Program-made: the position numbers and the translations under genes
The notes under the pieces: model-generated
Databases searched by the model: none
The model's input: only the letters and a program-made list of their open reading frames with translations
Told to the model about the DNA's origin: nothing
Assembly: GCA_030602565.1 (NCBI GenBank)
Contig: JAUVZL010000015.1
Span: forward strand, 1 to 48,652
From: Candidatus Stahliibacteriota bacterium
GTDB taxonomy: Bacteria; Hydrothermota; Tepidihabitantia; SM23-42
Length of the DNA stretch: 48,652 nucleotides
Reading direction: 5' to 3'
Shown here: piece after piece, positions 1,930-28,772 of the stretch
How the letters are laid out: every line of letters starts with the position of its first letter
Position numbering within the stretch: position 1 is the first letter of the stretch

Positions 1930-4900
1930 TCACTGTACATTTTTAGATCCTTTATATTTCTTCCAAATATCTTTTGTTATAAAATCATAACCTTCTTTAC
2001 CGTAGATATTACAAATATCATTTGCCATTTTGGATGTATCTTCAAGGCTAAACAAATATCCAATTATAGATCGGATATGTTTAGGGTTGTAATCAGGCGT
2101 ATATGTTTTAAGCATTTTTAGGAAAATTTTGCCGACATATTTAGCCGATTCAACTTTGTTATCCTTGTCCTTTAGTTTATCCAAATATTCAATAAAAATA
2201 GGGGAGTTAAATTCAAGATGGACATATGGAACCGATAACATGAGCCAATCGATGTACAGATTGTTTATTTTATCTAAAAATATTGTTAGCTTTATAACAG
2301 CAGAAAGTATTTTTTTATCATCATCATTAAGTGATTTACCCATATATTTCTCATACAATACTCCCCAAAATTTAATAATCTTATTTCTTTGCCCGCCATG
2401 TCTTTCGGCGATATCAGCTTCAGCTTTCTTAATTAAAACATTTCTTTGCATCCAGAAGAAGTTGATTGTTGCCATTATCTGTGATGGATACCACTTCGCA
2501 AGCATAGAATCAAAAAGACTTACTCCAGATTTATCATCAATGCCTTGTAGATAGCCTACTGCAATATGTTGCACAAGCATTTTTTCTATACTTTTCTCTT
2601 TAAAAGCATCTGATATAGCTTTTTTATAATGTTCTCTCATAAGTACGTACATATTTTTATGAAACCTGCCGGCAACAAGATATCCGTACATATATGAGTA
2701 CCAAAGTTTGTAGTTTATGCCTAGAAATTTCTGGATTTTCTTTTCTACCCAGGATTTATCTAGATAGTATAAATTTCCTATAAATTGACCAAATAATGCA
2801 TACGCTTCAACGATATTTTGTTTCAACATTGTTTCATATTTTTCTCTTAGATCATCACTCCATTTGACTACCTCTTCGTCATCTTTACGCTGCAATCTGG
2901 CAATTCTTAGTGCAAGATATATCATAGCAGTTATTGTGGTACCAAACGCTGAATTCATTGCATGTGTAATGGGATCCAGGGTTTCTTTTTCACGCTCTGG
3001 CTGCAATTTATCTAAAATAACAAATAAAATCTCTTGTGCAACTGGAAGGTGTTCCTTAGAAAATACCCATTTGTCATTTTTTGTGCCTTCTTGAATTAAA
3101 TCCCCAATAACCCAGATAGACCATTTGTAATCTGCATTCCATTGGTCATCGTCCATTTTAAACATATTTTGCCAGAAACCATGTGTATCAACGTACTGCT
3201 TTATAAAATTAAGTAACTTACCCCAGTCTATATCTATTTTTTTATTCCATGCCTCTCTAATGCCTTGAAGTATTTGATAGATATAATAATAACCCATATT
3301 CAAAAATGGTTTTAAATCATCAATGAACTTTTCAGGTTTCTCTTGCGCTAATGCTTTTAGCGTTTCCGCTAAACCATTAATTGTTGGACCATCCCAAAGA
3401 TCCTTCGTTCTAAAAGTTTTCAAAAACTCAGCGAGGTTAGTATTCGACATATTTAGAATTTCTTCTTTAGAGAGTGGCGAAGATCCTGGTCCAGATTTCG
3501 TTTTTGATTCTTTAAAGCTTATCTTTTCTTCAATCTTTGTTGATTTTTTGTGCTTTTCGTAAAGAGGCGAAAAATACGTGTCTGTTTTCATAGCTGAATA
3601 CCATTTTTGCTTCCAATAATGTTTGTATCTCATCTTATTTTTCTGTGGTACATAACTCTTTGGTCCTTTTTCGATAATCTTCTTTAACATATCTTTTTCT
3701 GTTGGCGTAAAATGATTTATGTTTTTTTCAAGTAAAGTGTATATTTCAACCTCAAAATTCGGGTTATCAAATAATAATACTCCACCAGGTTTTTTCAACA
3801 TTGACCAGAATTTATCTTTGAAATCGTCCCAACATTCACTGATTATGTACAAAACCAACCTTTTGAAATAGGGATATTGATAATTTTCACTCAAGAATGT
3901 TTCTAGTGTATCCCTGGCATTTTTAGAATCTTTTTTAGCTTTAGCTAGTAGAATATCACGTAAAATAATAGTGAGTACTTGCTCTGCTGCGAGCGCAGTC
4001 CATCCAGATTCCCCAGCTATGGATTCAAACCATATATATGAATTGTCACTGAAAATCCCAATGTAGAAATTCTGCAAACGTTCTTTAGAATCAGATAGTG
4101 CCTTTGCATTGATTCCTACTTTTGATAACTCAACTATAATTCTTGTAACAAAATTTTCTTTATCCCGGCAATTGTCTAATTCAAATTTATGTAAAGGTTT
4201 TGGCTTTTGTAGCGGTATTCCATAAAGTATTTCTTCCATAGAGCGATTTTCCAACTGTTCTTTATCGAGTATACCAACTATACAATCGAATTCAAAATCT
4301 TTCGAATGATCGACAAAAATACGATATTTTTTAGCGCTAACTTCAAAATCGAGTGCATGTGGATTGTTTCGGCGTCGAAATATTCCTTTCAATTTGTTCG
4401 CAAAACTAATAACAAGCTCTATTCCGCATCTCTCAGCAATTCTAATTGAATATTTTTGATTCACAAAAGACTCTATGAGCCAATGTGAATCAATTAACAT
4501 CCGAGCTTCTTCTTTGGCCAATAAGTCTTCTCTTATGGGTATCCATTTAATGTTAGTTATGTAATCAACAATTTTCTCGGCTTTCTTGATATCATCAGTT
4601 AATGGATTCTCTGGTAGAAATTTCGGCAACAATTCTGTTGCGATTTCTTGATCCACTATGTTTATGCCAAATTTGCTTTCAAGCCAGATGGGAATTAAAT
4701 CTATGATTTTATAGGATATTTTCTTGTTGGGAATATTTTTTAGAATTTTCACAAAATACCACCAAATTTGGTAGTTATCTCTGAGCTTTATATTTGAATC
4801 AGTATAATCAGATACATTCGTGATTATAGATAATAACTCATCTATGTATTTTTCATTGCCCCGAACATTAATTTGTTGTGACACACGTTCGAGATAGGGG

Positions 4901-5586
4901 AGAACATTCCATTGAGGGACTGAAAAATAGCCTTCTTGTTCGGTTGGTGTGGGAATTGGAGCTTTCGCAGGTGCAAAGAAATCACCATTTTTCAGTTGGT
5001 TAAACCATTCTACCGAATCTACTTTCTTCAGAAAGTAGTTTTCATATGCCTTATCTTTGATTAAATTCAAAATAAAATCTACTTCATGCTTAGTCGGTTC
5101 TTTTTTCTCTAAAATTATATCAACATGTTCAATATTGTCAAAAAACTTATCCTGAAATTCTTTTAGTAATTCAGCTTCGTTCTTTATTTTTATGGGCCTG
5201 ACCAACTTGGAGTAATTATTATCATCGATAATGTCTCCTGAAAATTTTATGGATGATATATCGCGCATTAGGGGAGGTAAATCCGAAAAGTTTATATCTA
5301 AGAGTATTGGTAATATCTTTACATCTCTGTTTGTAATTTGTCTCATAAGTGTTGCGTTCAATTCTTTCTTGGCCCATCCGCTTTTGATTAAATTTGAAGA
5401 GAAAACTATTACAAAGAAACTGCTACTTTTTAATCCTTTGTTGATTTTGTCAGTAATCGAATCACCAGCAATGATTTCCCATTCATCAAACCATACATCG
5501 ATCGAATCCTGTTTTAGTTTCTCAGTTAATTGAATTACAAAATCATGATCTTTCGATGAGTGACATATGAATACCTTATTAGGCAT
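1930..5586 (-). CDS. TIR-domain protein with about 1080-aa C-terminal region, putative defence NADase or sensor
   Basis: The first ~130 residues are a TIR domain: KVFICHSSKDHDFVIQL, then VWFDEWEIIAGDSI, and SGWAKKEL, where the Glu (residue 75 from the chosen start) occupies the position of the catalytic glutamate of NAD-cleaving TIRs. The remaining ~1080 residues look alpha-helical and solenoid-like. I see no Walker A motif there, so it does not look like a STAND/Avs ATPase. A segment near residues 200-235 (GYFSVPQWNVLPYLERV) is the kind of motif found in large uncharacterised defence proteins. The ATG at 5584-5586 is chosen because GGAGGT lies 5 bp before it; a TTG 12 bp upstream overlaps that site. 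The start overlaps the SIR2 stop by 8 bp, implying coupled translation. Function in NAD depletion or signalling is inferred. Confidence 0.85.
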   Translation of the reverse strand: MPNKVFICHSSKDHDFVIQLTEKLKQDSIDVWFDEWEIIAGDSITDKINKGLKSSSFFVIVFSSNLIKSGWAKKELNATLMRQITNRDVKILPILLDINFSDLPPLMRDISSIKFSGDIIDDNNYSKLVRPIKIKNEAELLKEFQDKFFDNIEHVDIILEKKEPTKHEVDFILNLIKDKAYENYFLKKVDSVEWFNQLKNGDFFAPAKAPIPTPTEQEGYFSVPQWNVLPYLERVSQQINVRGNEKYIDELLSIITNVSDYTDSNIKLRDNYQIWWYFVKILKNIPNKKISYKIIDLIPIWLESKFGINIVDQEIATELLPKFLPENPLTDDIKKAEKIVDYITNIKWIPIREDLLAKEEARMLIDSHWLIESFVNQKYSIRIAERCGIELVISFANKLKGIFRRRNNPHALDFEVSAKKYRIFVDHSKDFEFDCIVGILDKEQLENRSMEEILYGIPLQKPKPLHKFELDNCRDKENFVTRIIVELSKVGINAKALSDSKERLQNFYIGIFSDNSYIWFESIAGESGWTALAAEQVLTIILRDILLAKAKKDSKNARDTLETFLSENYQYPYFKRLVLYIISECWDDFKDKFWSMLKKPGGVLLFDNPNFEVEIYTLLEKNINHFTPTEKDMLKKIIEKGPKSYVPQKNKMRYKHYWKQKWYSAMKTDTYFSPLYEKHKKSTKIEEKISFKESKTKSGPGSSPLSKEEILNMSNTNLAEFLKTFRTKDLWDGPTINGLAETLKALAQEKPEKFIDDLKPFLNMGYYYIYQILQGIREAWNKKIDIDWGKLLNFIKQYVDTHGFWQNMFKMDDDQWNADYKWSIWVIGDLIQEGTKNDKWVFSKEHLPVAQEILFVILDKLQPEREKETLDPITHAMNSAFGTTITAMIYLALRIARLQRKDDEEVVKWSDDLREKYETMLKQNIVEAYALFGQFIGNLYYLDKSWVEKKIQKFLGINYKLWYSYMYGYLVAGRFHKNMYVLMREHYKKAISDAFKEKSIEKMLVQHIAVGYLQGIDDKSGVSLFDSMLAKWYPSQIMATINFFWMQRNVLIKKAEADIAERHGGQRNKIIKFWGVLYEKYMGKSLNDDDKKILSAVIKLTIFLDKINNLYIDWLMLSVPYVHLEFNSPIFIEYLDKLKDKDNKVESAKYVGKIFLKMLKTYTPDYNPKHIRSIIGYLFSLEDTSKMANDICNIYGKEGYDFITKDIWKKYKGSKNVQ

Positions 5587-6463
5587 GTTTACCTCCAATT
5601 CGTTTGGTGAAAACTGTGTATAATTTAGTTATTACCTTATATAGTAATGTCTCACCATAGTTATCAATATAGTAGGGAATTACTGTGATGTTATAATTAT
5701 CCTTCAGGGTAGTGGCTCGTATTTCGAGATAATCATTTCTATTTCTGTCACTGAGTTCTAACCAATAATGGCATCTTTGTTTGCCGCTCTTGATAATTCC
5801 ATCAAGTATTTCTTTTTCACATAGTCCATAGCCAATAAACAAAACGCAGTATTTTTCGAAAATGTCTCTAATAAATGACATACAGGGAGCACCATTGACA
5901 GAATAGCTTTTTATGTAGCTTCTACGAGTAAACACCCAACTATTCGTTTTATCTATACGACCATGCAGATAATTGATTTTTCTCGGTGACTCAAGGAAAT
6001 GGGGTGCAATAGAGATCTGATTATCTTCTAAACCTATGTACTTTTGAAATTCCATATCTAAGTTTGTTGTAACAAAAAAGTTGTTTTCATTATTTAATTT
6101 ATTCAGTGTGTAAAACACTTCCTTGTTAATGCTATCTTGCCATATCTTAAAAATTTGGTTCATTTCATTTTTAAATATAACATCGTCCAATCTAAATAAA
6201 TAGTCAAACTTTTCTACTTCATCAGGGTGTTTTTTTAAGGTATCTTTAAAACTATAATCAAATCTTCCAACCTTACTAATATCCATTTCATCTCTTCTAT
6301 CCCAGAATCTATCAATCAAATCATTTGCCAATTCATTCCACAACTTAAATCCTGCAAGTTTTGAAACACCTGCACCAAAAAATATGCAAGCGCCGTTACA
6401 TAAGTTCTCTATCAACCCTTTATATTTTGCATCTTCAAAATCAGGAATGTCAGCTGGGCTCAT
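5579..6463 (-). CDS. SIR2-domain protein, putative defence NADase
   Basis: A stand-alone SIR2-like domain fills almost the whole 294 aa. Visible motifs are FFGAGVSKLAGF (GAG at 30-32), FVTTNLD (132-136, with the conserved Asn and Asp), YLHGR with the catalytic-type His at 167, and VLFIGYGL (207-214). This resembles the SIR2_2 domains of phage-defence NADases rather than protein deacetylases, since no zinc cysteines are seen. There is no SLOG domain as in Thoeris ThsA, nor a fused helicase or Argonaute. The ATG overlaps the stop of a 40-codon ORF (ATGA), and the 3' end overlaps the TIR gene, so the two NAD-directed domains are encoded as one translational unit. Confidence 0.87.
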   Translation of the reverse strand: MSPADIPDFEDAKYKGLIENLCNGACIFFGAGVSKLAGFKLWNELANDLIDRFWDRRDEMDISKVGRFDYSFKDTLKKHPDEVEKFDYLFRLDDVIFKNEMNQIFKIWQDSINKEVFYTLNKLNNENNFFVTTNLDMEFQKYIGLEDNQISIAPHFLESPRKINYLHGRIDKTNSWVFTRRSYIKSYSVNGAPCMSFIRDIFEKYCVLFIGYGLCEKEILDGIIKSGKQRCHYWLELSDRNRNDYLEIRATTLKDNYNITVIPYYIDNYGETLLYKVITKLYTVFTKRIGGKHA

Positions 6464-7252: not shown

Positions 7253-7272
7253 AATGGGGTCAAATCTCAACA
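7253..7272 (+). repeat. GGGGTCAAATCTC repeat, copy R1 (inverted relative to the others)
   Basis: AATGGGGTCAAATCTCAACA on the plus strand. The other four copies (7634-7654, 8022-8043, 8841-8862, 9191-9210) carry the complement. R1 and R2 bracket a REP-transposase remnant in opposite orientations. Confidence 0.75.
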
Positions 7273-7395
7273 GGCTGACCGAGAATAAGGAGTAGGGCGT
7301 TTACGCCTGTGAAAATATGTCGAAATTTAATCACATTTAACGAGCCTAAAGGCTCTACTCCAAGAAATTTCGACATTCTCGGTCACCCTGTCAAC
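7268..7395. repeat. 128-bp inverted-repeat element, probably a BIME-like unit
   Basis: The left arm at 7268-7286 (CAGG.TGACCGAGAAT core) returns inverted at 7375-7395. Inside are a second inverted pair, TGTCGAAATT and AATTTCGACA (about 7318-7376), and small self-complementary hairpins GGCGTTTACGCC and GAGCCTAAAGGCTC. The whole stretch could fold as one long branched hairpin. No coding sequence is evident in it. Confidence 0.6.
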
Positions 7396-7473
7396 ATTCA
7401 ACATTTTCCTTTATTGTCTGCTCAATATTACCATACTGAAGTTGCAATACATTATCCTGAGTAAGCCGCTCCT

Positions 7474-7593
7474 TCATTCGGTTAGGAATCGTCGCCGATC
7501 ATCGTCATCTAAGAATATCTTACTACGTTCATTACCACGGCAGGTGACGTGATAATATGCTCCTGGATATTGAATCCTCAATTGCCTCACCAT
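7474..7593 (-). pseudogene. REP transposase remnant (N-terminal 39 codons)
   Basis: The reading starts MVRQLRIQYPGAYYHVTCRG and continues ERSKIFLDDDDRRRF, which aligns clearly with the N-terminus of the transposase at 18-380. It then hits a stop. A second frame just downstream (about 7476 down to 7385) gives roughly 30 residues rich in K, E and Q that could be the original C-terminus, so this looks like an internal deletion derivative. It lies between inverted copies R1 and R2 of the local repeat, linking that repeat family to a TnpA_REP enzyme. Confidence 0.7.
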
Positions 7594-7599
7594 GGTCCA

Positions 7600-7953
7600 T
7601 TATATCACAAATAAAGACGCTGTCAATGTTGAATGTTGAGATTTGACCCCAATTCTGCCCCAAAATTTACGGCGATGGTTGTCTATTTTCTGCAATTTGA
7701 AGTACTTCTCGCCGGAAAACATTTTTTTAAGTGCTTCTCTTTCCTGCCTTGTAAAATACGCATAGTAATTACCATTCCTATGCGTTGTGTGATACCTCCA
7801 TTGATCCCAGTTTTTCTTCCACGCTGTTTTTGGATATTGTTCCAAAACGAGTTTTGTTAAACTCCTAAAATCCAATTTATCTTTTGGATGCGAATGCACA
7901 AAATCTTTTATTAGTTCGGCGATACCTGCATATTTTTTATTCTTTGACTGCAC
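7600..7953 (-). CDS. Hypothetical protein, 117 aa, cassette-like unit
   Basis: I do not recognise the family. The N-terminal half (AGIAELIKDFVHSHPKDKLDFRSLTKLVLEQYP) looks like a small winged-helix or HTH-type bundle, followed by a basic, aromatic section. The start is GTG at 7951-7953, with GGAGGAATA immediately upstream. The natural C-terminus is probably near residue 100, because the last ~16 residues (GVKSQHSTLTA...) are read from repeat R2. The gene lies between repeats R3 (upstream) and R2 (at its 3' end). A DNA-binding role is only a guess. Confidence 0.6.
   Translation of the reverse strand: MQSKNKKYAGIAELIKDFVHSHPKDKLDFRSLTKLVLEQYPKTAWKKNWDQWRYHTTHRNGNYYAYFTRQEREALKKMFSGEKYFKLQKIDNHRRKFWGRIGVKSQHSTLTASLFVI
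7634..7654 (-). repeat. GGGGTCAAATCTC repeat, copy R2
   Basis: Plus strand TGTTGAGATTTGACCCCAATT, the complement of the R1 core. It overlaps the 3' end of the 117-aa gene and supplies its final codons. Confidence 0.75.
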
Positions 7954-8021
7954 TATTCCTCCTATTTATTGAGCATACTAAATGCTTTAGTATAGAATAC
8001 TCAAAACAGAATTTTGTCCGA

Positions 8022-8043
8022 TGTCGAGATTTGACCCCATTTT
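8022..8043 (-). repeat. GGGGTCAAATCTC repeat, copy R3
   Basis: Plus strand TGTCGAGATTTGACCCCATT. It lies about 55 bp after the stop of the 209-aa gene and about 70 bp before the start of the 117-aa gene. Confidence 0.75.
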
Positions 8044-8096
8044 CCGTATATTTCAATTTATCCATTGCGCAGTGTAAAGTCTTATGCCCATTCCGG

Positions 8097-8726
8097 TTAT
8101 GTCTTAATGAATTCTAATTCAATTCCTGCTGGCGTACTAAAACCTGTAATATCAATATAAAATTCACTTGCTAAAAGTATTTTGATAATTAATTTTTTGT
8201 CTTTTCCCATATATGAAGAGAATTTATCATAAACAATCTTTAAATACTGAACCGTGTCATAGACAATATTTTTGGCTAACTCTGGCTTTAGTATATATTT
8301 AATTTCAAAAAAGTACAGAGTGTCATCTGTTTGTAAACTACCATCGGGCGTGTAGCTGAATTCTGGTTTATCTGGTTTCCCATATACAAAATGGATAAGA
8401 GTTTTCACTTCCTTACCATATTTTTTTTGCTGCTTATCAAGAATTTGCGCTTCAATCTTTTGAAAACGTAAGATATTTCGCCTTGTAACAGATTGTTTGT
8501 TTTCGATTATGTTTTGTTCTATTTTCTCTTTTGGAGTGTTGAATTTTGCTCTAATTCCACCTTTAAAACTGAAAGCGAAGTCAGTAAGATCATCTATTTT
8601 TAGAAGTATCAAGAGAGCAAATAATAATAATATACCAAAGATGTATTCCCTCTTGCTGAACAAATAGAATGCTGAAAGTGCGAAAATCGCTCCAACAATA
8701 ATTCTTATTACATTATTTGCTTTCAT
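8097..8726 (-). CDS. Membrane-anchored PD-(D/E)XK-like protein, 209 aa
   Basis: Two hydrophobic helices at about residues 7-23 and 28-43 are followed by a soluble domain. That domain contains YTPDGS (P127-D128), then a beta-strand ending FFEIKY (E141, K143), the spacing of a PD-(D/E)XK nuclease core. A helix with E92 precedes it, and further strand-helix pairs follow. The family is not one I can name, and a nuclease fold tied to a membrane is unusual; a restriction-like function is inferred from the motif only. The gene has its own promoter (8794-8821) and lies between repeats R4 and R3, so it looks like an independently expressed cassette. Confidence 0.55.
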   Translation of the reverse strand: MKANNVIRIIVGAIFALSAFYLFSKREYIFGILLLFALLILLKIDDLTDFAFSFKGGIRAKFNTPKEKIEQNIIENKQSVTRRNILRFQKIEAQILDKQQKKYGKEVKTLIHFVYGKPDKPEFSYTPDGSLQTDDTLYFFEIKYILKPELAKNIVYDTVQYLKIVYDKFSSYMGKDKKLIIKILLASEFYIDITGFSTPAGIELEFIKT

Positions 8727-8793
8727 ATAACCACTATTTTATTAATCCAATGGCACGAATTACATACATTTTTGACAAAAAGGGGCTTGATTT

Positions 8794-8821
8794 ATGTTAC
8801 ACATTTTAGATTTATTGTCAA
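8794..8821 (-). promoter_or_regulatory. Promoter of the 209-aa membrane protein gene
   Basis: Minus-strand TTGACA (8816-8821), 16 bp, then TAACAT (8794-8799). It begins just beyond repeat R4, so the promoter belongs to the unit between R4 and R3. Confidence 0.5.
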
Positions 8822-8822
8822 G

Positions 8823-8858
8823 GACCATTTTCTATTCACTGTTCGAGATTTGACCCCA
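8823..8858 (-). repeat. Extended GGGGTCAAATCTC repeat, copy R4
   Basis: A 36-bp sequence, GACCATTTTCTATTCACT followed by a TTCGAGATTTGACCCCA core, that recurs at 9174-9209 with one mismatch. It overlaps the 3' end of the 102-aa reading frame and supplies its last residues. Confidence 0.8.
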
Positions 8859-9099
8859 TTTCCCTTACTGTTTTTTCTTGCCTGAATAGCTTAATAATCT
8901 CTAATGCCAACTGAAGACCGAAACCAAAAATCAATAAAGCCACACCAATTTTTAACCAAACGGGATGTAAACTCAATATAACGTGTTTCCCCATTATAAG
9001 TGCACTTCCAAATTCGGTATATATACCGGTTGAATAGGTAATCAAGATAGCGCCAGAAAAGTTCAAAACGAGACTAATGACGGATAAATATTTTTTCAT
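8836..9099 (-). CDS. Small membrane protein, two transmembrane helices
   Basis: From the ATG at 9097-9099 the protein is 87 aa, with one hydrophobic helix at about residues 4-22 and a second at about 48-68. The loop between them is probably periplasmic, and the tail is basic. GGAGGAAGT immediately before this ATG decides the start over an upstream ATG at 9144. The final residues (MGSNLEQ) are encoded by repeat R4, so the repeat has fixed the 3' end of the gene. The unit lies between R5 and R4. I know no function. Confidence 0.5.
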   Translation of the reverse strand: MKKYLSVISLVLNFSGAILITYSTGIYTEFGSALIMGKHVILSLHPVWLKIGVALLIFGFGLQLALEIIKLFRQEKTVREMGSNLEQ

Positions 9100-9173
9100 A
9101 CTTCCTCCTCTCAATCTACAACCATAGATTCTCTCTACAAACAAAGGTTATTCCAGAAACTTCAATCCCCGGT

Positions 9174-9209
9174 GACCATTTTCTATTCACTATTCGAGAT
9201 TTGACCCCA
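9174..9209 (-). repeat. Extended GGGGTCAAATCTC repeat, copy R5
   Basis: Matches R4 (8823-8858) at 35 of 36 positions. It lies about 80 bp after the stop of the NucS-like gene and about 75 bp before the start of the small membrane protein gene. Confidence 0.8.
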
Positions 9210-9287
9210 CATGCCCTCGAATGATTTGGGCTTTATATTTCAATCCGATAGTCATTTAATCCCTAACCACAAAAGTTTACGCCTATT

Positions 9288-10118
9288 TCATCTTTGTTTT
9301 TCTCTTTCCTCATTCAGTTTACCACCCATATTTTTAAATGATCTCTTGATTTTTTCGAAAACATCTGTATAATCTTCATTGCCAGTTTCAATACGTAAAC
9401 CTTCATATTCGCTTCCACGACCGTTTTCATCTATTGCTATTGCACCTATATCGAATGATTTTCTGTGGGGGAGCAACAAAGCAATTTGTCTATTCTTAAA
9501 TTTAAATCCAACATATCCTTGAGTAGTATATTCTCCAATTCCGCTCCCAAGACCTTTAATTTCCACAATAAGTTTATCAAAAAATGGTTTTAGCGAATCC
9601 TTTGTTATATAATTCCTAAGCTCAGCAATTGTTGCAGGTTTCGATGGTATTTCTCCTATTTTCGGCACAGATACTGAATGATAACATATACCCTGTTTTC
9701 CGTCATCTGTTAATAAAACAGTATACTCATAAAATTCAACATCTGGCATAACTAATGTACCAAGCCTTCGAATATCATCAGAGAATCTTTCGGCTATCAA
9801 TACAATGCGCGGATGTTCATCAGGATTTATTTTTTTATCTGAAAACATCTCTTTGATAGCATATCTATTTTTATCTATTGCGTTATAGTATTTAAGTGCT
9901 TGAAACAGTATGTTCTCATCTTCTTGAAGTTTCACCTCAATGATAACAAGTCTTCCGCCACTATCAACACATAGGAAATCAGGTGTACCTTTTCCAACAC
10001 CTAGGTCAAATTCATGTTTTAGAAGCATCAAACCCTCTTCAATAGCATCCAATTCTTTTTCAATTATTCCATGCAGTTCTTTTTCATTTAATGGTTTAGA
10101 TTTTTTAAATAATGCCAT
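9288..10118 (-). CDS. DUF91/NucS-like PD-(D/E)XK nuclease-domain protein, 276 aa
   Basis: The N-terminal ~100 residues show the NucS/DUF91-type core: E27-E28-GL, then GKGTPDFLCVD with Asp47, then LVIIEVKL with Glu61 and Lys63. This is the Asp...Glu-x-Lys arrangement of PD-(D/E)XK nucleases. The C-terminal ~150 residues resemble domains that follow such nucleases in stand-alone defence-island proteins; I cannot name them. There is a GGAGG in front of the ATG. It lies in the same direction and close behind the KAP, tail and 96-aa genes, so it may be the nuclease of that module, although its 3' end also falls into the gene-repeat array (R5). DNA cleavage is inferred from family motifs. Confidence 0.75.
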   Translation of the reverse strand: MALFKKSKPLNEKELHGIIEKELDAIEEGLMLLKHEFDLGVGKGTPDFLCVDSGGRLVIIEVKLQEDENILFQALKYYNAIDKNRYAIKEMFSDKKINPDEHPRIVLIAERFSDDIRRLGTLVMPDVEFYEYTVLLTDDGKQGICYHSVSVPKIGEIPSKPATIAELRNYITKDSLKPFFDKLIVEIKGLGSGIGEYTTQGYVGFKFKNRQIALLLPHRKSFDIGAIAIDENGRGSEYEGLRIETGNEDYTDVFEKIKRSFKNMGGKLNEEREKQR

Positions 10119-10177: not shown

Positions 10178-10468
10178 TTAAATGGACTTGCTTATTCTTT
10201 TATAAGATTTAAGAATGCTCTCAAGAAATGGTTTACCATCATTATTGAACCAATCTTCAAACTCCTTTTTTAATTTTTCAACTGATACTCGTTCTATCAA
10301 GAAGTCATCAAATGCATCATGGTCGATATAAAATTTCAAGAATCCCTTTTTATGCCTTTCTACTTTTTCTTTAAATTCATTTAATAAACCTTCCGTCTTA
10401 GGCTCTATCTCCTTATCCCACCATTCGTTGAATTTCTTTTGTCTGAATGTTACTAACTCTATACTCAT
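10178..10468 (-). CDS. Hypothetical protein, 96 aa
   Basis: A charged, probably all-helical protein (MSIELVTFRQKKFNEWWDKE...) with no motif I recognise and no signal or membrane segment. GGAGGAAAA lies just before the ATG, and the gene starts 11 bp after the stop of the tail ORF, so it is almost certainly cotranscribed with the KAP gene and probably with the NucS-like gene 59 bp downstream. Small partner proteins of this kind are common beside KAP NTPases, but I infer no specific job. Confidence 0.6.
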   Translation of the reverse strand: MSIELVTFRQKKFNEWWDKEIEPKTEGLLNEFKEKVERHKKGFLKFYIDHDAFDDFLIERVSVEKLKKEFEDWFNNDGKPFLESILKSYKRISKSI

Positions 10469-10479
10469 TTTTCCTCCTT

Positions 10480-10641
10480 TTATTTCTCCTCCATATCTTC
10501 ATAAATCCCTTTAAATTGCTCCAAGGCGGATTCGAGGTTTACGGCGATGTCGCGGGCGAGGACGTCGGGATCGGGTAGATTTTCAGTATCTTCCAGGCTT
10601 TCGTCTCTGAGCCAGAAATTATCGAACAGCAATTTTTTCAT
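10480..10641 (-). CDS. 53-aa tail ORF resembling a type I restriction subunit C-terminus (copy A)
   Basis: The peptide runs MKKLLFDNFWLRDESLED, then LPDPDVLARDIAVNLESALEQ and FKGIYEDMEEK. The LPDPDVLAxxI..NLESALEQF pattern is what I associate with the C-terminal tail of type I restriction-modification subunits, most likely HsdM and possibly HsdR, here without the rest of the gene. A second, decayed copy follows the TIR gene (1792-1907). An upstream ATG at 10677 overlaps the KAP stop, but the homology between the copies is best from 10641 inward. It may be a remnant, a small structural protein, or a recombination border. Confidence 0.55.
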   Translation of the reverse strand: MKKLLFDNFWLRDESLEDTENLPDPDVLARDIAVNLESALEQFKGIYEDMEEK

Positions 10642-10663
10642 AAGTAACCCCATTCCTTCATAC

Positions 10664-13600
10664 TCATAGAGAATCAACCCATTCCCAATATTGTCTGTTT
10701 TGTTTATTAACCCGTTGGGGTTTTAAATCTTTTAATCCAACCACAATCGCAGTTTTAATGGGACCGTCTTGTTCAGTCTCAATTCTGTGTTTTACATCAT
10801 TAAAATTTTGCATTCGGTCTTCATACTTTGGCTTTATTTCTTTTAGAATACCAAATCCCAGTTTTATGCTTTCCTGATTTGATCCTTTGCGAATCAATTC
10901 ATCAAATAGAAACTGGTGAAACTCTTTCTGTTCTTCATCATTGAATAAACTGTAACCAGAATAGATCGTTCTTATAGCATACGGTTGATACTTATTTGTT
11001 ATATTTGGCTTACGAATCCAATCAAAAACATCTTTTGATAATTGTCTCTTTCGCTCTTCTCCAATATGCTTACTTGCATCTGAAAGTGCATTGAAACCTA
11101 CCTCTTGGGATACAACATCAGTTGAGCAGAGATAGGTTTTAAGTTTTTTAACAAGAGTATCTCTCTGGTCGGCAACATTACCACACTTTAGAGTATTAAC
11201 TAATTTTAATAATTTGCCCTTTTCGGTTGCTGGCAAGCTGTCAATTTTATTGAAAGTCTTCTCAACTATAGCTACCGAGTTTGGAATTTTGTAGTTGAGT
11301 TCTTCTATTTTGGTTAATGCTCTATTGTAATCAATATCAAATAGTTTTGTTAGCAATTCAGCTTTTCGATCTTTTGATGACTTGCCGTATACGTAATCAA
11401 AAACCTTTTGATCGGTTAGTGACTTTTTTTCAAAAATGGAAGTATAATCAGATCGTTCAATGAATTCTATTGGCTCTGGTATATCTTGCATTACAAATTC
11501 TAAACTAGCTATATCAGCCGAGTTTAGGAAATTCGTAATAACAGTATTAATTTGCGCCAACCTTGCTTGAGTTGTCAAGCTTTTGATTTTTAGTAGGACA
11601 GGAATGAAAATTCTTCTTTGATTTATGTTGGGAATGGCATTTGCCCCCACTACTAAACTTGCTGCAAAGGCATCAAATTGTGTGGATACTGTAGTGGATA
11701 AGATACGCCAATGTGTATTCAATATTTTGCTATAAGCCTTTAGCAGCAGTTCCTTGTGTTTATACCGTTCAGGTGCTATATTTTTGTTTTCGGTTGTTTG
11801 AATATCATTTAATTTTTTGATTATTTGATCAGATAGATTTGAATCGATCAAATCCGATTGGAATGCCGCTAATATATCGATTTTATCCAAAATATCGTCA
11901 ATATCAGTATCTATTGTGATCCCCTCGATAAACGTTGAGATATACGCTGGAGTAATAAGTCTTTTCTGCAGGTCACTATTTTTTATTATAGTTTCATTAA
12001 TAAGAGTATTTTGGCTATATCTTGCTTTCGCCAGAATTTCTTTGAGTTTTTGCAGCGTTTTGGCGTTTAAGTAGGTAGGCTGTTCACCAAAAATGACTAA
12101 CAAATCAGTAACGAATTTATCATCGATTTTATAAGAGGGTTTATCCTGTGTTTGGTTGTCCAAAACATCAATCCATTGTTCTATTATGACATTCCTATAC
12201 TGCGCATATGGCTTAAGCAACTGTCTACTTAAAACGTATGTCTTAATTGTATGGATGTAGGATTTTGCTGGGCCTGCTAATTTATTATAGATTTCTCCAT
12301 AAGCGGTGGCTGTAAGTTTAACTTTATGAAAATCTAAAACAGAAAGAAGTGTGGCAATGAGACTTGCAATACTTACAGGATTAGTTTTATTTTCCAATTC
12401 CATCTTAATAACATGACTAAATGCTTCGATTTTTTCCTCTTTATTCATATCCTTAAGTTGGGCATAGTATTTCTGTGCTTCTTCTTCTTTTCTATCTTCT
12501 AGAAAGGCTATAAACGATTCAATCCCCGGAAACCTTTTCTCATGCTCAGAGCGACGCAAAGTGAAAAATATTCGAAGATTTGCAATAGGAATATCGAGCT
12601 CAGTTTCTTTCACAAAATTAAGGAACTCGTCTTTTTTGCAGGTTTCTAATTCACGAGTAGTAGCTTCTTGTAGATTTAGTACCTTATCTTTCCGCAATTT
12701 CTCCATTTCATCAGGAAAGAGTTCATATAGAATAAGATACTTTGCGAGCTGAGCTATATTATCAGGCAAAAATCCGGGAAGGAAATCTTTTTCTGTTCCT
12801 TCACGCTCTTTTATTAGAAGATAATTAGCGAGAAGAATATTAATAAATTGTATAATCTGTCTTGGGTTCTCTCTAAAAGCTTTGGTTATGACCCAAGCCA
12901 CTTTATCGTTATCTAAATCAACGACTTTAGTTTCCCGGAGACTACTTCTTGCATATGCCTCTAACTCCTCCGGGATAAATTCTGGAATCCATAGTATTGC
13001 ATTAAAAAACTTTCTTAAAAATTCATCAGGGTCAAAGGGTGAAGACTTAGCATTTATTGCGTATACACCAGCAATATGTTTTCTGATGGCACCAGCGTCG
13101 CAGGGGATAAGAAAAATTACATCTTTTTCTTTATTTTCAATATCCTTAGGTTCTAGGAATGTTTTGATAGTAGCAAGTACTTTCAATGCTCCTTCCTGCG
13201 TTACTCGGTCTAGATTATCAAACACTATTACTATTTTTCTGTGCACTAGGTGGCGAAGAATTCTTGAGAATTCCTGCTCAAATTGGTGAGGATCTTTAAA
13301 CCTATCTTGACCAAATGTTGTTGTTTCTGTTGTCAAAAACTGACCGGCATTTTTAATCAACCATATTAAAAAAGAGCCACCAAATATCGCAGATAAAAGT
13401 ATTCCAAGGGCATACATAAACTGTTGCAGAAAGCCTGTAGCATATGCAATTACTCCAACAATAACCAGAGCTACAATAATAAGTAATAACATTCTCCCCA
13501 GATGCCGTATCTTTTTCTTGTTGATCTTGAATTCACCTTCTGACTTTCTACTAATACTGCTTTCAACTCTTTCGTCCAAACTGAAATTCTTGTCAAAATA

Positions 13601-13921
13601 GGCATTACCGTACGATTGCAATTGCTTTGTAATTTCTTTTAAGAAGGTTCTACGCAGGGCATCACCTTTATGTTTCCACACATCAAAGACGATCACCGGT
13701 ATTTTTGAAGAAGCTAAAATAGTTTTCACAAAATTTGCTATGGTGCTTTTACCCGATCCCCATCTTCCAAATAGACCTATCGTGAACGGGGTTGGGCAGT
13801 TAGTAACAATAGTTGTGAGAGTCTGGGCAATTTCTTTGTGGCCAAATTTGGATCTTTTTATTTCTTCAATTGTTTCTAATGGTTTGTCTTTTAGAAATTC
13901 AAATTCTATTTTTTTTTTCAC
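10664..13921 (-). CDS. KAP family P-loop NTPase, 1085 aa, putative defence ATPase
   Basis: Walker A is GLFGRWGSGKST (K58), and Walker B is IVIVFDNLDRV (about 230-240). Between them sit two transmembrane helices at about 144-162 and 166-190. This insertion of membrane helices into the NTPase domain is the hallmark of KAP (Kidins220/ARMS-PifA) proteins; PifA blocks T7 and other KAP proteins occur in phage defence. The C-terminal ~600 residues look like an alpha-helical solenoid. The start is GTG at 13919-13921, four bases after GAGGAGAATT-type ribosome-binding sequence, overlapping the stop of a small ORF that ends in an HsdS-like tail. Role as a membrane-bound sensor/effector is inferred from family. 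Confidence 0.9.
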   Translation of the reverse strand: MKKKIEFEFLKDKPLETIEEIKRSKFGHKEIAQTLTTIVTNCPTPFTIGLFGRWGSGKSTIANFVKTILASSKIPVIVFDVWKHKGDALRRTFLKEITKQLQSYGNAYFDKNFSLDERVESSISRKSEGEFKINKKKIRHLGRMLLLIIVALVIVGVIAYATGFLQQFMYALGILLSAIFGGSFLIWLIKNAGQFLTTETTTFGQDRFKDPHQFEQEFSRILRHLVHRKIVIVFDNLDRVTQEGALKVLATIKTFLEPKDIENKEKDVIFLIPCDAGAIRKHIAGVYAINAKSSPFDPDEFLRKFFNAILWIPEFIPEELEAYARSSLRETKVVDLDNDKVAWVITKAFRENPRQIIQFINILLANYLLIKEREGTEKDFLPGFLPDNIAQLAKYLILYELFPDEMEKLRKDKVLNLQEATTRELETCKKDEFLNFVKETELDIPIANLRIFFTLRRSEHEKRFPGIESFIAFLEDRKEEEAQKYYAQLKDMNKEEKIEAFSHVIKMELENKTNPVSIASLIATLLSVLDFHKVKLTATAYGEIYNKLAGPAKSYIHTIKTYVLSRQLLKPYAQYRNVIIEQWIDVLDNQTQDKPSYKIDDKFVTDLLVIFGEQPTYLNAKTLQKLKEILAKARYSQNTLINETIIKNSDLQKRLITPAYISTFIEGITIDTDIDDILDKIDILAAFQSDLIDSNLSDQIIKKLNDIQTTENKNIAPERYKHKELLLKAYSKILNTHWRILSTTVSTQFDAFAASLVVGANAIPNINQRRIFIPVLLKIKSLTTQARLAQINTVITNFLNSADIASLEFVMQDIPEPIEFIERSDYTSIFEKKSLTDQKVFDYVYGKSSKDRKAELLTKLFDIDYNRALTKIEELNYKIPNSVAIVEKTFNKIDSLPATEKGKLLKLVNTLKCGNVADQRDTLVKKLKTYLCSTDVVSQEVGFNALSDASKHIGEERKRQLSKDVFDWIRKPNITNKYQPYAIRTIYSGYSLFNDEEQKEFHQFLFDELIRKGSNQESIKLGFGILKEIKPKYEDRMQNFNDVKHRIETEQDGPIKTAIVVGLKDLKPQRVNKQNRQYWEWVDSL

Positions 13922-20770: not shown

Positions 20771-20970
20771 TACAACTATTGAGTGCATATCAATACATCG
20801 ATACCAATGCCAGACTTCTTGACATTAGACAAAATCTAAAGTCTCGGCTGGTTTTTTTTAATTAGAAACCGCTGCCGAAGGTCTCGAGTATATCGAGAGG
20901 CAATTTTTCCAATGGTCGCTGATGTTCAACAAGAACGCGGATACTGAAACAGATGGACACGTCTGTATAA

Positions 20971-27663: not shown

Positions 27664-27667
<4 letters not shown>
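26537..27667 (+). CDS. FAD-dependent amine/amino-acid oxidoreductase (DAO family), 376 aa
   Basis: The N-terminal dinucleotide motif VIVIGGGIIGCATGFCLSKKG and VYLLEKDYLTAGSTGRCIGG are typical of the glycine oxidase/sarcosine oxidase beta-subunit group. The C-terminus, GFYIVGGMCGHGFMLGPEIG, is the second FAD contact. Substrate is a secondary amine or small amino acid by family; glycine from the Kbl reaction would be a sensible substrate, but this is inference. A TTG 15 bp upstream is an alternative start; neither has a strong ribosome binding site. It overlaps the tgt start by 4 bp (ATGA). Confidence 0.82.

Positions 27668-28772
<1,105 letters not shown>

Follow-up and report, generated by a model that had tools for sequence, protein, structure and literature searches.

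Integrons are the best-known system in which single genes are stored and shuffled in polar arrays. A single end could also suffice to move neighbouring genes, as in the one-ended HUH mobilisation of the ISCR/IS91 type; whereas the enzyme family and the ends of ISCR/IS91 differ from those described here, and no rolling-circle transposase is known from the arrays. Relatives of the TIRYT transposases cut single-stranded DNA via a nucleophilic tyrosine. TIRYT enzymes are Y1 transposases associated with terminal inverted repeats (TIRs), and the TIRs of their elements, the TIRtrons, share the sequence GGGGWSAS (Di Nocera 2013, PMC3733652; subclass 2.1 of Quentin 2018, PMC6006769). The TIR repeats reported in the literature occur as singles, dimers or groups; whereas solo ends as polar 3' boundaries of shuffled gene arrays are not described in the passages found. 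Such solo ends were observed in a genome of Candidatus Stahlbacteria / WOR-3 (G000; 2,737,775 bases in 104 contigs). The starting point was a stretch of 48,652 bp from this genome (the window), in which a sequence-only reading had described a cassette-like series of four genes, each ending in the same short repeat. The repeat, GGGGTCAAATCTC, is the end (foot) of a TIRYT-type Y1 element. The explanation that we prefer, tentatively and with nearly as much confidence as doubt, is that single TIRYT feet form the 3' boundary of mobile, usually single-gene units, which are held in arrays of one orientation and shuffled as whole units.

The repeat and its element family

Five exact copies of GGGGTCAAATCTC (R1-R5) are present in the window, and R2-R5 all point the same way, as had been noticed before. 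When up to two mismatches were allowed, shuffled sequences contained 1.0 copies on average, and none of 100 shuffles reached five. The whole genome contains 75 exact copies, compared with 0 for a reversed control; with a leading T and at most two mismatches, the counts are 157 and 12, respectively. The base preceding GGGG is T in 74 of the 75 exact copies. The Rfam scan of the locus gave no match at R1-R5.

Many of the genome copies are accounted for by inverted pairs that lie 39-340 bp apart, and several of these pairs are perfect miniature inverted-repeat transposable elements (MITEs) of 90-102 bp with the ends GGGGTCAAATCTCGACATTGGACA. Other inverted pairs, about 1.05 kb apart, flank a Y1_Tnp gene on contigs C6 (331 aa) and C82 (338 aa). 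In the genomes G013 and G004 a 330-aa Y1_Tnp gene likewise lies between a pair of feet, and a foot pair with the same spacing of about 1.05 kb is found in G005. The three Y1 proteins that were scanned matched PF01797 (E=4e-11 to 6e-14). These elements (C6, C82, G013, G004) are organized like TIRtrons, with a Y1/HUH gene inside inverted copies of the foot and with families of TIR repeats in the genome. The feet (GGGGTCAA, with the variants GGGGTCAG and GGGGTCAC) also fit the TIR core GGGGWSAS, or GGGG[AT][CG]A, the A form deviating at the eighth base only. A C-terminal DnaA_C-like helix-turn-helix domain, as in subclass 2.1, was matched in two of four proteins at a level below the Pfam cut-off (PF08299, E=2e-4). 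The sequence TGGGGTCAAATCTC is the terminal foot (TGGGGTCA...) of TIRYT-type (TIRtron) Y1/HUH single-strand transposase elements and of their MITEs. The repeat itself is a new member of the TIRtron ends, and the element type is already known.

The classical pair of a repetitive extragenic palindrome (REP) and its RAYT transposase was considered and rejected; the GTAG-type tetranucleotide at the foot of a palindrome is missing, the foot being TGGGGTCA, and the 14-mer is not palindromic. Because a GTAG foot and a REP hairpin are both absent, the element is a TIRYT relative and not a classical REP/RAYT. The REP/REPIN/RAYT systems are similar in having repeats downstream of genes, which at times give the stop codon, as well as a single-strand transposase and short inverted-repeat non-autonomous elements. 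However, the elements described here have no GTAG/GGAG foot and no REP hairpin, their feet are co-oriented with the array genes, and genes move between the feet. A single-strand REP transposase had been suggested as the agent in the sequence-only reading, from a TnpA_REP remnant between R1 and R2. A Y1 transposase indeed owns the repeat (two intact copies in G000, others in G004 and G013); it belongs to the TIRYT type and not to the classical REP/RAYT type, and only by this association is it plausible as a REP-like single-strand agent.

A truncated Y1 transposase gene also lies at positions 18-380 of the window; its DNA is about 96% identical to the intact C82 element, and it is interrupted, close to where the contig begins, by a stop or a frameshift.

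Unpaired feet, arrays and shuffled units

No inverted partner within 1.4 kb was found for 35 of the 75 exact copies. Where an unpaired foot follows an ORF (open reading frame) of at least 100 aa (n=24), 20 feet are co-oriented with the ORF and 4 are opposite. The paired copies are ordinary MITEs or elements, and the unpaired copies show a strong preference for gene 3' ends. A genome-wide lack of such a preference would have refuted the sequence-only reading, and this is not what was found. Feet read in frame also terminate proteins outside the window, with the C-termini ...EDVGSNLE (C21), ...EDVGSKLS (C77) and ...EDVGSNP (G016).

Contigs C77, C94 and C21 (positions 1-30200), oriented by their feet, were analysed as arrays and contain 82 ORFs; about 200 kb of stretches from the same genome were used as controls. 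A foot was counted at a gene 3' end when it lay from -25 to +100 bp of the stop. A co-oriented foot is present behind 26 of the 82 array ORFs and an opposite one behind none; whereas among the 186 control ORFs there is one of each kind. The unpaired feet are not inserted at random. The genes are divided by strand 27:2 in C77, 20:3 in C94 and 42:7 in the whole of C21, and the TGGGGTCA feet 15:1, 10:1 and 14:3, in the same direction. The cassette-like organization of single-gene units with co-oriented repeats at their 3' ends therefore exists, and on a larger scale than had been proposed from the window.

Past the foot lies a mosaic of repeated modules, often followed by a promoter and the next gene. 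These array spacers are 65-400 bp long and are direct repeats. Many of them are closed by GACCTGCCACC, the inverted foot of a second Y1 element family (GGTGGCAGGTCTTG..., C94:7696; element at L079 1418-2424, or C94:7696-8700), whose ends are GGTGGCAGGTCTTGACATTCTAC. Promoter-like sites were found upstream of 19 of 79 array genes and 28 of 173 control genes, that is, somewhat more often in the arrays. A mobile promoter was rejected as the cause of the orientation: the A2 spacers (Table 1) carry one, many other spacers do not, and in the latter the promoter of the gene itself lies further down. Among the array proteins that were scanned are secreted ones carrying sorting tails, others with TonB or secretin domains, a nucleotidyltransferase and unknowns. 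Word-like repeats that change fast (GAAACGGAGACACGGAG..., ATGAAAAAATTGCAGCGG...) also occur in the spacers of C77, C21 and C94, always in a single direction, and one such module is found at window positions 20818-20916.

Relatives have arrays as well, namely G001 and G003 of the same genus and G016 of the same family, the last on one contig. The C21 array adjoins a conserved block of more than 7 kb that is collinear with G003:C56 and about 96% identical to it, and therefore it holds the corresponding place in both species. When the array contigs of the relatives were oriented by foot majority, the order of the units was found to differ. For example, four C77 units (35.6k, 31.4k, 19.7k and 11.3k) occur in exactly reversed order in G001:C322, all on the same strand; G001:C262 directly joins the C77 units 15.3k and 10.6k, and two C21 units are swapped in G003:C56. 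The units thus shift position between genomes with their polarity kept, as in a cassette array. Moreover, genes that run against the feet (minus-strand unit genes) hold that orientation relative to the feet in the relatives, and the MFCPK gene is found in several contexts across G000, G001, G003 and G016.

The 3' homology breaks off at the foot in four of the gene comparisons. It runs to ...GAATTGGGGTCACC and then differs between C77 and C21 (86.5%), and between C77 and G003 (96%) it extends to TGG, followed by GG or CG.... In the two comparisons of C77 with G001 (97-98% identity), the homology ends at TGGGGTCAAA for a 301-aa gene and at TGGGGTC for the MFCPK gene. Related copies of a unit have identical foot positions and different spacers after them. 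Two 97%-identical spacers in C77 stand behind unrelated genes, starting exactly at TGGGGTCA and ending exactly at GACCTGCCACCT; a 98% pair in C94 behaves in the same way behind unrelated genes. The left ends of the type-A spacers in the window, C21, C94 and G001 also coincide exactly at TGGGGTCA, after unrelated sequence. Retrocopied transcripts were ruled out as the source of the units; the shared segments often contain a -35/-10 promoter.

The window locus

The features of the locus are listed in Table 1. Of the five copies in the window, only R3, R4 and R5 are solo, unpaired feet. R1 and R2 bound a single element with an internal deletion, and therefore R2 is not a cassette end; the idea that all five repeats are cassette ends was ruled out for this pair, and three of the four genes first described as ending in the repeat remain. 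The only possible partner of R3 is R1, 784 bp off, with another gene between them. The 5' end of the deleted element (foot, promoter and first codons) resembles the intact elements on C6 and C82, and its 39-codon remnant has the same type of N-terminus as the Y1_Tnp proteins L071, L075 and L089.

Table 1. Features of the repeat locus in the window
Feature	Position	Strand	Remarks
R1	7255..7268 (exact core 7256-7268)	+	T+GGGGTCAAATCTC; exact match, inverted partner R2
Internally deleted TIRYT-type element	7255..7651 (397 bp)	-	inverted ends R1/R2; nested repeat inside
Y1 transposase remnant	7474..7593	-	first 39 codons (MVRQLRIQYPGAYYHVTCRGNER...), then stop; promoter kept
117-aa ORF	7600..7953	-	last residues derive from the deleted element; R2 inside the ORF
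R2	7638..7651 (exact core 7638-7650)	-	terminal repeat at the 5' end of the deleted element, inserted within or behind the 117-aa gene
R3	8026..8039 (exact core 8026-8038)	-	solo foot about 60 bp past the 209-aa gene
209-aa protein	8097..8726	-	hydrophobic segments at the N-terminus
R4 foot with type-A2 spacer	8768..8858	-	about 91-96% identical to spacers in C21 and C94
102-aa ORF	8836..9144	-	hydrophobic segments; likely start ATG 9099
R4 exact core	8845-8857	-	solo foot, exact match
R5 foot with type-A1 spacer	9138..9209	-	about 94% identity to the C21 and C94 copies; also on G001 contigs
R5 exact core	9196-9208	-	solo foot, exact match
276-aa protein	9288..10118	-	NucS_C-type nuclease domain PF01939 (E=6e-6); first unit of the short array

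Several details of the sequence-only reading were supported. The gene before R5 is NucS-like, with a weak PADLOC match to PDC-S11/S18, and R5 sits 80 bp past its stop. The small membrane protein does end inside R4, which is read in frame and provides the C-terminus MGSNLEQ and the stop of the 102-aa ORF; the repeats had been said to supply new C-termini (GVKSQHSTLTA, MGSNLEQ), and the last residues of the 117-aa ORF likewise derive from the deleted element. The unit after R4 carries its own promoter, TTGACA-17-TAACAT (about 8793-8821), which lies in the A2 spacer and faces the 209-aa gene. The next start had been placed 70-115 bp after each repeat; the possible starts lie about 73-119 bp past R3 and R4 and about 97 bp past R5 with ATG 9099, but only 52 bp past R5 if a TTG start is used. 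The PD-(D/E)XK label of the 209-aa protein found no support in Pfam, and this protein has no Pfam, PADLOC or PHROG match; the 117-aa ORF has no family match. A search for the same genes elsewhere had been suggested; homologues of the 276-, 209- and 117-aa proteins were found in none of the 26 other genomes of the order, with one weak match in the own genome. Such absence is as expected of accessory units.

The locus lies among defence-like genes, including SIR2 and TIR-domain proteins (Dsr1-like), a KAP ATPase near QatA and, further along the window, type I restriction-like ORFs. At 1930-6463, a SIR2-domain protein (294 aa) adjoins a TIR and Dsr1-C-terminal-like protein (1222 aa), as if a Dsr1-type defence gene had been split in two and a TIR domain added. 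The KAP-family ATPase (QatA/PifA-like, 1085 aa) and two small ORFs behind it occupy 10178-13921, and one of these small ORFs weakly matches the HamA end (E=0.004). At 27664-28772, a tRNA-guanine transglycosylase-like gene seems to be divided between two ORFs (183 and 155 aa), maybe by a frameshift.

Comparison with integrons and alternative explanations

The arrays are similar to chromosomal integrons and to clusters of attC sites lacking integrases (CALIN) in several respects: they are long and of one orientation, their genes are mostly single and mostly lineage-specific, a repeated site lies behind the genes, and the order changes without inversion. However, IntI and attC are missing here, the units often come with a promoter, homology can break off at the spacer edge nearest the gene, and the candidate enzyme is of the HUH type and not a tyrosine recombinase. 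The integrase IntI (TIGR02249) was found over the curated cut-off in none of the 27 genomes of the order, and the sub-threshold matches are other tyrosine recombinases such as XerC/D. The attC sites (RYYYAAC...GTTRRRY with folding arms) were found neither in C21 nor in C94, and C77 has one weak candidate, in agreement with the earlier remark that the repeats are not attC. An integron or CALIN identity was rejected for the lack of IntI over the cut-off and of attC sites in the arrays. A decayed integron whose attC sites were invaded by TIR elements is also very improbable. The single-gene units would fit it, and so would one attC-like sequence (TCTAAC...GTTAGAC) in C82, which lies in L082 behind a gene and just before the Y1 transposase; whereas the lack of IntI speaks against it, as does the lack of significant R''/R' pairs in C21 and C94, with one weak pair in C77.

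In the explanation based on mobile units, the data show the identity, polarity and 3' position of the foot, the shuffling of units without inversion and some of the breakpoints, and we infer the transposase as agent and its strand-exchange chemistry. At the T/GGGG foot a TIRYT would cut DNA in single-stranded form, and what lies to the left of one foot (the gene 3' end) would be rejoined to the sequence right of another foot. The exchange of genes and spacers would thus have a fixed polarity, like that of IntI acting at attC, and the units would often carry their own promoter. R3-R5 might then be a three-gene outpost of the system in a defence-gene region, beside a dead TIRYT element. Several observations weigh against this explanation. 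Neither an excised circle nor an empty site nor a junction of two feet was seen in these metagenome-assembled genomes (all genomes used are of this kind, with genes called by a simple ORF rule), and where array borders were inspected, no intact TIRYT was seen. Clean breakpoints are few: of about 13 breakpoints examined on the 3' side, only 4 coincide exactly with the foot, most of the rest precede the foot or a foot variant by 2-26 bp, and in G001:C369 no foot was seen. The 5' breakpoints vary (ribosome-binding site, promoter or right end of the spacer). For about two thirds of the array genes a perfect foot is missing from the 100 bp around the stop, and therefore one has to assume drift, degenerate feet or units of several genes.

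The main rival, which we regard as unlikely, is passive: TIRs and MITEs would insert by preference just downstream of genes, as REPs do, in one strand orientation (for example, lagging-strand specific) and mostly lose the second end, while the gene order changes by illegitimate or homologous recombination and the elements have no part in gene movement. Paired MITEs are common in the same genome, and the feet behind orthologous genes are often several bp apart. According to PMC3733652, REPs found between co-directional ORFs sit near the point where the upstream ORF ends and can give its stop codon; the transposition of IS200/IS605 elements is strand-specific (PMC8266576). However, passive insertion leaves unexplained the 26:0 polarity of the arrays against near absence elsewhere, the identical foot positions with different following spacers, and the reversal of order without inversion. 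RecA recombination between the direct-repeat spacers, with circles excised and reinserted, could also give integron-like shuffling without a dedicated recombinase; the spacers are in direct orientation throughout, with copies up to 97-98% identical behind unrelated genes. This is improbable, since related units cease to be homologous at the foot or before it and not within a shared spacer, and the following spacers are mostly of different module types. As little credit can be given to the foot as a 3' regulatory or terminator signal under selection on array transcripts as to the decayed integron. Its co-oriented position 9-60 bp past stop codons would suit such a signal; whereas the foot is near absent from genes elsewhere in the genome (1/186), has no Rfam match at R1-R5, and is the end of transposase elements.

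A wider reading, possible though rather doubtful, is that of an integrase-free cassette system, in which domesticated Y1/HUH TIR ends serve as polar recombination sites, where single genes are captured, shuffled and at times given a new terminus, in arrays of tens of kb; such a system might be functionally parallel to integrons with a different enzyme chemistry. The open-licence papers searched contained no polar arrays of shuffled units, and a literature search by sequence gave nothing relevant. If true, this would be a second route by which gene cassettes arise in uncultured bacteria (Stahlbacteria/WOR-3), unrelated in its chemistry to the first, and would give a function-like outcome to a widespread and poorly understood family of single-strand transposases.

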